Positions 59,802-64,000 of a stretch of DNA of 64,000 nucleotides are shown in pieces (position 1 is the first letter of the stretch; each line of letters begins with the position of its first letter). This DNA is from Acidobacteriota bacterium (lineage in GTDB: Bacteria > Acidobacteriota > Holophagae > Acanthopleuribacterales > Acanthopleuribacteraceae): the NCBI GenBank assembly GCA_020439745.1, contig JAGQSC010000017.1, positions 124,001 through 188,000 of the forward strand, written 5' to 3'. The position numbers and the translations under genes are program-made. Below the pieces are notes generated by a model. The model was given only the letters and a program-made list of their open reading frames with translations, made no database searches and was not told the DNA's origin.

Positions 59802-60461
59802 TTACCACTTCCAGGCGAAACCAAAACGCACATCGATGAAGTCGGTTTCGCTTTCCGCCACTTCGAAGCTTATGTTGCCGACACGATCCAATTCGACACT
59901 GTCGGGGATGACATATTCTGCATCTGATCCCCGCGTGTAACGCGCCCCGAAATGCAATGAAAAAGCACTTCGATCGCCGTCGTCATCGCGCCAGCTACTG
60001 ATGACGAACTCAGCACCTGCACCGACACCTATCGCGTAGGCCGCATCGTCGAAGTCGCGTTCTACATCGACAAAGTCGTCGTCAAAATCGTCATAGAAAA
60101 AAGTGGTGGACGTCACGAAATAGTGAACACCCATGAATCCTTCCAGATAAGGGCGTACGGGACCGCGATGCGGTTGCAAGCGCAGAATCACGTCCAGGGT
60201 CACGGCAGCATTATCAGTGCGTATTTCGTCAATGTCGCCCCGTCCGTTTACCCGTGTATCATCAAAATGGATATATCCCAGCTCAAAACCTGCGGAAAGC
60301 GGTGCAACAGGTACGTCAAACATCAGCCGGCCTGCCAATCCAAAACCATCATCGTCAATGTTTTCTTCCAGGTCGCCCTGTGGCAGGACACCGCGAAAAT
60401 CCAAGCCGAATTGAACTTGACCGAATACGAGGGTCGAAAATAACAGCACAGCAAATCGCAT
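59802..60461 (-). CDS. Small outer-membrane beta-barrel protein
   Basis: 219 residues with a signal peptide ('FAVLLFSTLVFGQ'). Alternating beta-strands ('VQFGLDFRGVLPQGDL', 'SAGFELGYIHFDDTRV', 'AYAIGVGAGAEFVISS') end in 'VRFGFAWKW', an aromatic barrel terminus. Several Asp-rich loops ('DDFDDDFVDVERDFDD') may bind cations or be surface-exposed. It resembles generic OmpA/OmpW-type eight-strand barrels with no assigned substrate. A GGGAGG ribosome site precedes ATG 60461. Convergent with the receptor gene. Confidence 0.75.
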   Translation of the reverse strand: MRFAVLLFSTLVFGQVQFGLDFRGVLPQGDLEENIDDDGFGLAGRLMFDVPVAPLSAGFELGYIHFDDTRVNGRGDIDEIRTDNAAVTLDVILRLQPHRGPVRPYLEGFMGVHYFVTSTTFFYDDFDDDFVDVERDFDDAAYAIGVGAGAEFVISSWRDDDGDRSAFSLHFGARYTRGSDAEYVIPDSVELDRVGNISFEVAESETDFIDVRFGFAWKW

Positions 60462-60539: not shown

Positions 60540-60550
60540 CGGAGGTTTAT

Positions 60551-60682
60551 ATGCGGGAGCAACTCAAAGAACAGGGTTACGACAAAGAAGAAGAGTACTT
60601 CAAACGCAAAGAACGAGAAGAGATGGAGAAGTATCGCCAGAAGCTACGAGAAAAGAAAGCCGAACAAGAAAAAGAGGATTAG
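60551..60682 (+). CDS. 43-residue highly charged microprotein, IF1-like motif
   Basis: ATG 60551 follows GGAGG (60541-60545) at ideal distance; TAG at 60680-60682. The product is almost entirely Lys/Glu/Arg/Gln and predicted as one long helix. 'EEEYFKRKEREEMEKYRQ' resembles the inhibitory helix of mitochondrial F1-ATPase inhibitor IF1 ('EERYFR...RE.L..L'). No Cys, signal or TM. Cytoplasmic. The stop overlaps the end of the convergent 59-aa gene. Coding status is well supported by the ribosome site; the functional parallel is inference. Confidence 0.65.
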   Translation: MREQLKEQGYDKEEEYFKRKEREEMEKYRQKLREKKAEQEKED

Positions 60683-60858
60683 GGTAAGGGCGGCAGAGGC
60701 GTCCAATACTCGGATGATTCGTCCCCCGAGGGGTCCTTCATCATCCAGACCGAGCCATCTTCCGCTAATGCAAATAAGCAGATTCGGTCCATGATGACCT
60801 TGGCGTCTTGATCAAAGTGTGAATACGAACCCACTGAAATTTGTTTGATCTCACTCAT
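60679..60858 (-). CDS. 59-residue protein of unknown function
   Basis: ATG 60858 with CGGAG upstream, stop at 60679-60681. It begins 'MSEIKQISVGSYS', and the middle 'CLFALAEDGSVWMMKD' followed by 'YWTPLPPLP' looks like a single beta-propeller blade or WD-like strand set. No signal or TM. It starts 14 bp after the DUF445 gene, so it is likely cotranscribed. Its end overlaps the microprotein gene by 4 bp. Confidence 0.65.
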   Translation of the reverse strand: MSEIKQISVGSYSHFDQDAKVIMDRICLFALAEDGSVWMMKDPSGDESSEYWTPLPPLP

Positions 60859-60872
60859 CTGTTACTCCGTTT

Positions 60873-61583
60873 TCATTTGATGACGAAGCTGGAAACCAGT
60901 CCGATCAGGCCACCAAACACGCCTCCCCACACCACGAGCCACCCCAAGTGACTGCGAATCATCTGTTCGACAATACGTTTTACGGCATCAGGGGTTAGTT
61001 GATTCAAGCGGTGTTGGACCATCTCCGAAATCTTCTCCTGCAAATGTTCGTCGAGATGAAGCGGATGTTGGCTTTCAATCACCTCTTTGAATTCCGGCTG
61101 GTGGGCCAGTTCTTTCAGTTTGGTCCGCATAGTCTGTGCGAATGGCTCGCGCATGGGTTCGATCACCTTGCTACCGCCAAACATGGAGAGCATGCTGCCT
61201 ATTTTCGATTGGTTAATCGCCTCGACCAGTCCTTCAAACATATGGTCGTAGTTGATCTTCTCGATGACTGGGTCGAAGTTGAACTCCTGGATCGCCTCCT
61301 TGGAGGCGAATTGTTTGATGTTCTCCAAACTGAAGAACTGGGTCATAACCATGGTTTTGATCGCACTCTTGAACGCTTCGAATCTCAATGGAATGATGCC
61401 TGAGCCGTAAAGGCCAGGTACCTTTTCGAACAACATGTAGACTGCCAGCCAATTGGTTATGGCACCCGAAAATGCGAAGTAACCTGTATTCAGTACATGG
61501 TGTTGTATGGAGGCAGGTGTCACCGTATGACCCAACACAACGACTACGACGCAGATCATGTTAACCAGTAAGCTCTTATTCAT
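60873..61583 (-). CDS. DUF445-family membrane protein
   Basis: 236 residues. An N-terminal TM helix ('LLVNMICVVVVVLGHTV'), 'GAITNWLAVYMLFEKVPGLYGSGIIP' core (residues about 40-65) and a C-terminal TM helix ('WLVVWGGVFGGLIGLVSSFVI') enclose a helical soluble part; the 'TNWLA..MLF' signature defines DUF445/YheB. Function unknown. GTG 61586 directly precedes ATG 61583; the ATG is preferred because AGGGAG lies 5-6 nt before it. Confidence 0.85.
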   Translation of the reverse strand: MNKSLLVNMICVVVVVLGHTVTPASIQHHVLNTGYFAFSGAITNWLAVYMLFEKVPGLYGSGIIPLRFEAFKSAIKTMVMTQFFSLENIKQFASKEAIQEFNFDPVIEKINYDHMFEGLVEAINQSKIGSMLSMFGGSKVIEPMREPFAQTMRTKLKELAHQPEFKEVIESQHPLHLDEHLQEKISEMVQHRLNQLTPDAVKRIVEQMIRSHLGWLVVWGGVFGGLIGLVSSFVIK

Positions 61584-61644
61584 CACGCTCCCTTAACTTT
61601 GCGGATGTCACTTTAGCAGAAGATCGCTTGCGCAAAAAAACCTT

Positions 61645-62694
61645 TTAGTCTGTGACACTTCCGCATGAATGGTCAAGTCGGACAACGGTGGATTTGATCA
61701 GACAGGTGACGGTGTCTCCGACTTTCAGTTTGAGTTGTTGCAGTGCCCTTGGCGTGATCTCCGCATAGATGGGCTGGCCCGCGTCTAAGGTAAGTAAGAC
61801 CACCTGATCGACGGGGTGTATGGATAGAATCGTGGCGCGGATCTGGTTTTGAGCGGACAGGGATGCCGAAGCCCCTTTTAGGAGCATGACGTCCTCCGCT
61901 CGGAATCGCAGGTGCATGCGTGTGCCGCATTTGGCATGGCCTGGTGCGTGAAATGTTTGCCCACTGACGTCAATTTCCATGTGGTCAACTGTCTGTCGGA
62001 TGACTTCGCCTAAGACTGAGTTCTGGATGCCCATTCTTACGAGAAACGGTAGACATCGTTCGTGATTGATCAACTCAGACATGGTTCCTTGAAAACAAGG
62101 GCCTGAACCTGTAATGACCAGAAATTGGTCTGTGAAATACATCAATTCATGCATGTGATGGGTGGTGATGAGCATGTCCATATCATGTTCGACGCACCAT
62201 TGATCGATGAATTGCATGATTGACGCACGATGTGTGGCGTCGAGACCTGTGAACGGTTCATCCAGCAGCAGCAAGCGTCGCCGGCTGATTAGTGCACGAC
62301 CAATGCTGAGTCGTTGCTGTTGGCCGCCCGATAAGTGCCTGGGCAATTTTTGAAGCACTGATTCAAGACCCAGTGCTTCAACAACTCGATCATCCAGCGC
62401 CCCAGCAAAGGTCAGGTTGTCTCTCGCAGTTAGATGGGGGAACAAACGAGGTTCCTGAAACACATACGCGATGCTTCGTTGATGAGGTGCCCATTTCGAT
62501 GACCCGCCGTGCCACAGCTGGCCCCGATATTCGATGGTCGCTTGCTCGGGATACGTCAGACCGGCAACGGTTCTGAGAAGGGAAGTTTTTCCGGCACCCG
62601 AAGGGCCCAGGACAGCCAGACGATTGCCTGAGATATGGCTGTCGACGTGGAGATGAAACCCGTGGTAATTCAGTTTGAATCGAACAATCATCAT
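61645..62694 (-). CDS. modC: Molybdate ABC transporter ATP-binding protein
   Basis: 349 residues. Walker A 'GPSGAGKTS', Q-loop 'FQEPRLFPHL', signature 'LSGGQQQR', Walker B 'LLLLDEPFTGLD', H-loop 'ITTHHMHEL'. The C-terminal about 100 residues form a TOBE/Mop domain ('LRFRAEDVMLL', 'YAEITPRALQQL', 'VTCLIKSTVV') that senses oxyanion in ModC proteins. ATG 62694 overlaps the modB stop; a second ATG follows immediately. Confidence 0.93.
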   Translation of the reverse strand: MMIVRFKLNYHGFHLHVDSHISGNRLAVLGPSGAGKTSLLRTVAGLTYPEQATIEYRGQLWHGGSSKWAPHQRSIAYVFQEPRLFPHLTARDNLTFAGALDDRVVEALGLESVLQKLPRHLSGGQQQRLSIGRALISRRRLLLLDEPFTGLDATHRASIMQFIDQWCVEHDMDMLITTHHMHELMYFTDQFLVITGSGPCFQGTMSELINHERCLPFLVRMGIQNSVLGEVIRQTVDHMEIDVSGQTFHAPGHAKCGTRMHLRFRAEDVMLLKGASASLSAQNQIRATILSIHPVDQVVLLTLDAGQPIYAEITPRALQQLKLKVGDTVTCLIKSTVVRLDHSCGSVTD

Positions 62695-63362
62695 CGATCT
62701 TTCCGTCCTGATACCCATTCACTTGCTGCCACTGCAACCACTGATACGGCGGCACATATCAGGGTAAGGCGCAGGGCAGCTGCATCGCCATCCGGTTGTT
62801 GCACGGCATTGTAGATGGCCAAGGGAAGGGTTTGCGTTTCGCCAGGAATGGATGCGCATAGTGTGACGGTGGCGCCGAATTCGCCGAATGCGCGGCTAAA
62901 TGCCAGCACCGATCCGCCAATTAGGCCGGATTTCAGGAGCGGTAGCGTGATTCGACCAAACGTTTTGAGTGGCGAACTGCCAAGGCATATGGCGGCTTCT
63001 TCAAGCCGCCAATCGTGTCGTTCAATCGCAACGACCATAGACCGAATCATAAGTGGGAAACTTGTGATCCAACTGGCCAAGACGGCGCCTTTCCAATTGA
63101 AGGCGATAACCAGCCCAACCTGGCTCAGCAAGGCACCCAGGCTATGGTTGGGCGAGAACATGAGCAATAAAAGGTATCCCATCACCACGGGCGGGACTAC
63201 CAGTGGCAGCAGGGTCACGGACCGCCAGAATGGTTTCCAGGGTATGGCGCTGCGTGTGAGTGCCCAAGCGACTGCGAATCCGGTGGGCAGGTTCAATGCC
63301 GTTGCGGCCAAGGCTACTTTGATCGACAGCCAGAGGGCCTGCCATTCCAGGTCAGAGAGCAT
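62691..63362 (-). CDS. modB: Molybdate ABC transporter permease
   Basis: 223 residues with about five to six TM helices. The EAA-loop motif 'EEAAICLGSSPLKTFGRITLP' (split about residues 130-150) and 'SFPLMIRSMVVAIE' are typical for ModB, as is 'RAFGEFGATV'. Start ATG 63362 overlaps the modA stop; upstream open frame to 63425 lies inside modA. Inner membrane. Confidence 0.93.
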   Translation of the reverse strand: MLSDLEWQALWLSIKVALAATALNLPTGFAVAWALTRSAIPWKPFWRSVTLLPLVVPPVVMGYLLLLMFSPNHSLGALLSQVGLVIAFNWKGAVLASWITSFPLMIRSMVVAIERHDWRLEEAAICLGSSPLKTFGRITLPLLKSGLIGGSVLAFSRAFGEFGATVTLCASIPGETQTLPLAIYNAVQQPDGDAAALRLTLICAAVSVVAVAASEWVSGRKDR

Positions 63363-64000
63363 CAACGACAAGGTTGGAAACCTTGGCGCCCGAATACGTC
63401 TGAGTTGGCAAGGCTCGTGAACCATTCCGGTGGAGGATCGAGGAAAACGGCCTGGTAGCGAATCGGGTCATGGGTATCTGAATCGATGGGTTGATGGATG
63501 TGCAAGTGATATCGGATGGCATCTGACTTGTAAACCACAGCATAGGCGACCATGCCCGTGCTGAGGTAACGAATACACGTGCGTGCATCAGGTGCTGGGA
63601 CGATTCTGTGTTCCATGTGTTTCCACAGGTTCATAGATGTAAGCGCCTGTCGACCGTACATGCCTTGTGGCACATGAACGGGGTCTCCCATGGCAATACG
63701 GACGTTGTCGGTAAAGGGGTCATCGTCCCTTGGACCGCTCGAGGCAATTACCAACTGGTTAGACCACAAGCACATCACGGGAAGGGCGGTATGGACCCTT
63801 TTCGTCCATCGGTCGTGCGCGGAGATGAATAGATCTGCCGAGGCACCAGCCTCTAACTGCCGCGCTAACTGCGAGGAACTGCCATATACCACTTGTATCT
63901 TGCTAGTGAGGTTGAGCTCTTCTATGGCTTGGTCAAGTGTACCTGCCAAACTAGAGGCTGCATAGATGGTGTACGTCTCTTGGCGCGTGTGACATTCAAC
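63362..64000 (-). CDS. modA: Molybdate-binding periplasmic protein, N-terminus beyond window
   Basis: 213 residues are visible; the frame stays open to the right edge, so the signal peptide and start lie outside. 'YAASSLAGTLDQAIEEL' is the ModA anion-binding start, 'YGSSSQLARQLEAGASADLFISA' region follows, with 'PVHVPQGMYGRQAL' and 'VAYAVVYKSDA' in the second lobe. It delivers molybdate/tungstate to ModBC. Stop overlaps modB. Confidence 0.92.
   Translation of the reverse strand, partial: VECHTRQETYTIYAASSLAGTLDQAIEELNLTSKIQVVYGSSSQLARQLEAGASADLFISAHDRWTKRVHTALPVMCLWSNQLVIASSGPRDDDPFTDNVRIAMGDPVHVPQGMYGRQALTSMNLWKHMEHRIVPAPDARTCIRYLSTGMVAYAVVYKSDAIRYHLHIHQPIDSDTHDPIRYQAVFLDPPPEWFTSLANSDVFGRQGFQPCR

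Follow-up and report, generated by a model that had tools for sequence, protein, structure and literature searches.

A stand-alone 43-residue helix protein of Acanthopleuribacteraceae with likeness to IF1, a candidate brake on F1-ATPase

A reading frame of 43 codons in the window, by which we mean the whole stretch of 64,000 nucleotides analysed here, raises the question of whether a bacterium makes an inhibitor of F1-ATPase of the IF1 type that is reduced to a bare helix. IF1 is described as a mitochondrial feature. A 2022 survey lists two bacterial IF1 BLAST hits only, which it attributes to transfer from animal hosts, and none in alphaproteobacteria (PMC9317440). The genome studied here (5.1 Mb) belongs to the Acidobacteriota, and the sequence-only reading of this DNA was right in placing the candidate in a phylum outside the alphaproteobacteria.

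The microprotein gene and its surroundings

The gene extends from 60551 to 60682 on the forward strand, from an ATG start to a TAG stop that is included in these coordinates, and its translation is MREQLKEQGYDKEEEYFKRKEREEMEKYRQKLREKKAEQEKED. The ribosome-binding site GGAGG (60541..60545, +) is located 5 nt ahead of the ATG. Codons 13-17 (60587..60601, +) encode E-E-E-Y-F and align to E30-E31-R32-Y33-F34 of IF1, while codons 23-28 (60617..60634, +) encode E-E-M-E-K-Y and align to E40-Q41-L42-A43-A44-L45. By homology of the microprotein gene, the nearest named relatives of the host are Acanthopleuribacter pedis and Sulfidibacter corallicola. A protein search across 61 genomes (its own and 60 relatives; self match E 7.3e-18) found stand-alone copies in six of the seven genomes of the family Acanthopleuribacteraceae (class Holophagae, phylum Acidobacteriota), and the sensitive profile search that the sequence-only reading had proposed for homologues, run on the seven family genomes, likewise gave six. 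Homologues in five of the six other family genomes show 55-61% identity, with E values of 1.5e-5 to 6.4e-8, and a single weak match (E 0.589) was found outside the family.

All six copies show GGAGG or AGGAG 5-8 nt before the ATG, and a stop codon ends each of them. Across 26 core codons, codon differences are highest at third positions in 14 of 15 pairs and tied with first positions in the other. The residues G9, Y10, K12, E13, E15, F17, E23, E26, K27 and K31 are invariant in the alignment of these copies (A1), and E13, E15 and F17 are also invariant in 20/20 aligned bacterial helices. Homologues lacking the YF pair would have spoken against the earlier proposal; F17 is present in 6/6 stand-alone copies and Y16 in 5/6, with His in Sulfidibacter. 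The protein was predicted to be a single helix from its letters, and the AlphaFold model, built from 6 sequences, agrees, with one helix over residues 2-42 and a mean pLDDT of 82.5.

By these sequence comparisons the reading frame is a genuine conserved protein-coding gene; the sequence-only reading had noted its well-placed GGAGG. A spurious or non-coding frame, in which a charge-rich translation arises by chance, is extremely improbable: the frame is very short and of low complexity, and no promoter or terminator pattern was found near it, but six genomes share homologues, ribosome sites and the third-position excess, and a chance origin was rejected, as far as sequence can tell, on the family homologues and the third-position codon differences.

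The gene is flanked by an oppositely oriented gene for an outer-membrane barrel (59802-60461) and by a convergent ORF of 59 aa (60679-60858, -), whose stop overlaps that of the microprotein by 4 nt. Since the frame stops at this convergent ORF and six genomes have the helix as a free protein, the microprotein is not a local truncation, and a remnant of a zinc-ribbon protein was rejected on the same grounds. No Pfam family over its cut-off was found for the 59-aa ORF. It is kept in the sister genome as a 65-aa ORF (L006, 1641-1838, -) with the pattern QITVGSYSHFD...W.MKDP.GDE.SEYWTELP. Further along, a DUF445 membrane protein is encoded at 60873-61586 (-; 66.6 bits), and this gene and the 59-aa-type ORF adjoin the microprotein in both this genome (G000) and G001. 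The region 61645-64000 (-) holds an ABC transporter ATPase with a TOBE domain, then permease-like and binding-protein-like ORFs, and looks like a molybdate uptake operon, the last two ORFs being assigned by reading only. A histidine-kinase-like gene, as read from its translation, is the neighbour in S. corallicola, in A. pedis and in the sister genome of the latter. The sequence is thus conserved while the neighbourhood changes, the pattern expected of a protein working on its own.

Related helices on zinc-ribbon and TerB-like proteins

Profile A1 matched 83 of 297 Acidobacteriota genomes at E<=1, and the stronger matches are the N-termini of longer proteins. Reading of 29 loci gave two types, the helix followed by a TFIIB-type zinc ribbon or by a TerB-like domain of ~160 aa; one of the 29 (L030) is a broken frame without meaning, outside both types. 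Among the 20 proteins of alignment A2, Pfam recognized Zn_ribbon_TFIIB in 8 and TerB in 4 of the 6 TerB-type members, some of them below cut-off. A broader profile of 17 bacterial helices and 40 columns (A3), from which three of the 20 A2 sequences, the most divergent zinc-ribbon helices, were dropped, matched 65/396 genomes at E<=0.01. The collected loci contain 40 distinct helices: 17 on TerB-like proteins, a class assigned by tail length, 16 on zinc-ribbon proteins and seven alone. One of the seven (L051) is a zinc ribbon that has lost its first Cys pair and was excluded from the stand-alone group in the residue-conservation comparison; the remaining six all belong to Acanthopleuribacteraceae. 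Outside this family, the helix occurs fused to zinc-ribbon or TerB-like domains.

These profile comparisons show that the free helix is one form of a broader acidobacterial helix module, which in longer proteins precedes a TFIIB-type zinc ribbon or a TerB-like domain. The stand-alone form that the sequence-only reading described holds in six family genomes, and the fused forms found elsewhere were unforeseen and leave room for other functions. A scan of genome contigs for the helix outside the phylum gave Acanthopleuribacteraceae members only; tblastn on plasmids gave the zinc-ribbon part only, among the matches listed (20 of 155), and further plasmid searches gave nothing relevant. A literature search, run outside most subscription journals, returned no description of these helix proteins, and nothing on zinc-ribbon or TerB proteins with an IF1-like helix. 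A group of zinc-ribbon proteins (L008-L020 type) also has a conserved SGWFGKLF-type tail at the C-terminus, behind the zinc ribbon, which may be amphipathic and bind a membrane or a protein.

The same genome encodes a TerB-like protein (L073, 2826-3389, -, on contig C17) that starts with MSNELFGARRKALEESFF and scores 25.7 bits for TerB against a cut-off of 24.4. Its N-terminus, FGARRKALEESFF, is closer still than the microprotein to the IF1 pattern F22-G23...R25..A28.E30..[Y/F]F. Zinc-ribbon proteins from other members of the phylum (L033, L035) likewise bear the 'GY.KEEEYF' variant, and a fused protein may therefore be the source of the free form. The presence of a free helix and a helix-bearing TerB-like protein together in this genome, and the same variant on the zinc-ribbon proteins, would suit a microprotein that competes for the partner site of its TerB-like or zinc-ribbon relatives and antagonises them, whatever the partner; however, the fused form was not found (E<=0.1) in five of the six family genomes that carry the free helix, and we regard such a competitor as improbable.

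Likeness to IF1 and the putative F1 target

When profile A3 was compared with 177,635 PDB sequences, IF1-type chains took the top five places (E 0.0026 to 0.12). Plant complex I P2 (6x89_P2, E 0.0026) ranked first, followed by PSK (7dtl, E 0.0092), which Pfam assigns to IATP at 39.2 bits, and by the IF1 chains 8h9e, 9w2r and 2v7q (E 0.042-0.12), with EEEYF aligned on EERYF. Ranks 6-8 were unrelated (E 1.2 to 2.5) and rank 9 was another IF1. Two column-permuted versions of the profile (A4 and A5, with 34 columns versus 40 in A3) gave 0 and 2 PDB matches at E<=10, none of them IF1. A local permutation test, confined to the 34 columns free of gaps, gave human IF1 a score of 22.2 bits, reached in 0/1500 permutations, where the null averaged 4.8 (sd 2.6); bovine IF1 scored 18.4 bits (1/1500), and P2 and PSK 24.1 and 31.6 bits (0/1500 each); the IF1 fragments of this local null were picked beforehand as top matches, and the correction for database searching comes from the permuted-profile PDB searches rather than from the local null.

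A profile of 34 fused-type helices, independent of the microprotein, found PSK (E 0.0017) and P2 (E 0.012) as its top two PDB chains, with eIF2B alpha third at 0.64; bovine and human IF1 were absent from its matches within E<=10. The profile of stand-alone helices only gave P2 at 0.031, EAF6 second at 0.3 and PSK at 0.99. Of these fused-type helices, 28/34 matched Pfam IATP, the one family that recurred, at E<=1, with 0.00013 as the best value; the next family matched 5/34, while 0/10 permuted fused-type helices (10 of the 34 were tested) matched IATP. Against three undoubted IF1 fragments (A8), hhalign gave pairwise, not database, values of 74% for A3, 66% for the fused-only profile and 44% for the stand-alone-only one; A8 was used instead of profile A6, whose values of 96% and 94.8% were set aside because A6 is circular, containing the P2 and PSK chains found with A3. 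The microprotein itself reaches 10.6 bits (E 0.82) with Pfam IATP (PF04568), below the curated cut-off of 25 bits, and the IATP model run over the whole of its genome found no match, the control genomes being likewise silent. The IF1-like core noticed in the letters, which lines up in register with the inhibitory helix of mitochondrial IF1, survives shuffled controls: as judged by these profiles, the match exceeds what charge composition and shuffling give, and it is modest for the stand-alone family alone.

According to PMC3041923, the residues of strong effect in bovine IF1 are A21, F22, R25, A28, E30, Y33, F34, K39, E40, A43, A44 and L45, those of intermediate effect Q27, R37, Q41 and L42, and those of weak effect K24, E26, E29, E31, R32 and R35, with residues 13-20 slowing dissociation. 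We scored F22, A28, E30, Y33, F34, L42 and L45 as F1-contact residues, and R25, K39, E40, A43 and A44 as non-contact residues needed for activity. Among 33 fused helices, E30 and F34 are kept in 33/33, E40 in 31/33 and Y33 in 31/33 (otherwise F). R25 is kept in 26/33, the A28 position is A/S/G in 29/33 and the F22 position L or F in 28/33. The L42 position is I/L/V/M in 33/33, the L45 position M/L in 32/33 and the Q41 position L in 33/33, with mostly E and K at A43 and A44. In these fused forms entropy is lower at the F1-contact positions than at the remaining ones (p 0.019), while conservation is not significantly correlated with the effect of mutation (Spearman 0.26, p 0.25).

The six stand-alone proteins keep the equivalents of E30, F34 and E40 in 6/6 and of Y33 in 5/6; they show Q at the R25 position in 5/6, D/N at the A28 position in 6/6, and E and K at A43 and A44, and the contact-position test is not significant (p 0.74). 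In the microprotein, the contact positions E30, Y33 and F34 are identical, L, M and Y are hydrophobic at F22, L42 and L45, and A28 is D; at the non-contact positions, R22 and E23 fit K39 and E40, and Q8, E26 and K27 do not fit R25, A43 and A44. Its start is the equivalent of IF1 residue 18. With R25 and A28 replaced and this late start, the microprotein is the poorer match to IF1 and the fused proteins the better one.

As for the presumed target, this genome has its F1 genes (b', b, delta, alpha, gamma, beta, epsilon) side by side on another contig (C10). The beta subunit (AILGIEELSDEDKLVVSRAR) shows V-S-R-A-R behind a DELSEED-type motif, which we take to fit the V404, S405 and R408 pocket of bovine beta, with a spacing obtained by reading. 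The beta sequence appears only compatible with binding of the helix, and most bacterial betas would fit too. Epsilon has 133 aa with its C-terminal part present, so the loss of this domain was ruled out and another brake may exist. F-type gamma was found in 59 of 61 genomes surveyed (58 of the 60 helix-positive ones and G002), one match being below cut-off (G300) and the misses being G301 and the lower-quality G340; the survey covered the genomes with A3 matches at E below about 0.001, the family genomes and G032, ten weaker ones being omitted. As F1 is near universal, this co-occurrence is weak evidence.

An operon with the ATP synthase was rejected, both helix genes of this genome being on contigs other than the atp contig. 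Only one of the 60 helix-positive genomes (G180) has a helix gene and the F1 operon on a shared stretch under 10 kb: the zinc-ribbon helix gene L079 (829-1182, +) precedes the F1 operon there, at a distance of about 4.4 kb that includes four other genes, a proximity that is likely due to chance.

At this point a second explanation has to be weighed, in which the helix is a general acidobacterial N-terminal interaction module that docks on a partner other than F1, its match to IF1 being convergence on an amphipathic charged helix of the EEEYF type. It would account for 33 of the 40 distinct helices being carried, together with one on a degenerate zinc ribbon, by zinc-ribbon or TerB-like proteins and not by ATPase proteins, for a link to the atp genes that is not conserved (other contigs in this genome, nearby only in G180), and for a stand-alone form without R25 and A28. 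However, non-IF1 charged helices in the PDB rank far lower, permuted profiles lose the match, and the invariant positions coincide with the F1-contact positions of IF1. We consider such a non-F1 module quite possible.

A putative brake and its known counterparts

We favour, at a probability of roughly 40%, the reading in which the microprotein is an IF1-like brake on F1 reduced to a bare helix; the step from helix to F1 is one that we infer throughout. This would be the single most likely specific function, and some other partner, taken as a class, is equally likely. According to PMC3603450, the IF1 helix inserts at the catalytic interface, and according to PMC10066207 inhibition by IF1 is relieved under synthesis. 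By analogy, when ATP falls and rotation reverses, the bacterial helix would enter the F1 alpha/beta catalytic interface like IF1 residues 21-45, E13 (IF1 E30) would form a pair with the arginine of beta that corresponds to bovine R408, and Y16, F17, M25 and Y28 (IF1 Y33, F34, L42 and L45) would pack against the C-terminal domain of beta. ATP hydrolysis would be stopped, and rotation in the synthesis direction would push the helix out. Since the microprotein has neither the histidine switch, nor the dimer coiled coil, nor residues 1-17 of IF1, we propose a monomeric brake, weaker or faster to leave. Where the same helix is part of a fused protein, it may be delivered or gated by the attached zinc ribbon or TerB-like domain.

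The wider claim, that Acidobacteriota have true IF1 relatives in which an F1-blocking helix occurs alone (43-48 aa) or tethered to zinc-ribbon and TerB-like domains sensing metal, redox state or stress, seems to us rather unlikely. If true, the IF1 module would predate mitochondria and reach beyond them, with the microprotein as its smallest form in nature; if the partner is not F1, the helix would still be an unnamed N-terminal module common to two widespread protein families. A bacterial helix with the IF1 contact pattern, alone and fused to sensor-like domains, would allow direct tests of how IF1 arose and of how ATP hydrolysis is controlled outside mitochondria.

Among the closest known systems is IF1 (Pfam IATP PF04568; yeast INH1, bovine IF1), with which the microprotein shares one long helix, the residues E30, Y33, F34 and E40, and hydrophobic residues at F22, L42 and L45; the fused bacterial forms additionally keep R25 and A/S/G at A28. 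It differs from IF1 in being bacterial, in lacking the N-terminal segment 1-17, the His switch and the dimer coiled coil, and in having Q and D at R25 and A28. By Pfam's own cut-off it is not an IATP member, and its likeness to this family is at most functional. Subunit P2 of complex I in plants and algae (At2g27730, 6x89_P2) also has an IF1-like helix, and three bacterial profiles each place it first or second among PDB chains, yet it is a mitochondrial complex I subunit, and its fragment reaches 17.5 of the 25 bits required for IATP.

The zeta subunit of the alphaproteobacterial F1-ATPase combines an IF1-like N-terminus with a helical domain. According to PMC10469736, this bacterial inhibitor mimics IF1 through its N-terminus. 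No zeta model or chain was matched at E<=10 by the microprotein (Pfam, NCBIfam) or by profile A3 (PDB). The TFIIB-type zinc-ribbon proteins of Acidobacteriota (Zn_ribbon_TFIIB PF13453) share the N-terminal helix, with about 40% identity over it, but carry a zinc ribbon and a C-terminal tail of the G-W-F type, whereas the microprotein is helix only: no zinc ribbon or TerB domain was found behind its helix, the ORF stopping 26 residues past YF. The TerB-like proteins (PF05099), one of them encoded in this genome, bear the same N-terminal helix and, unlike the microprotein, have 187-203 aa with a helical TerB-like domain.
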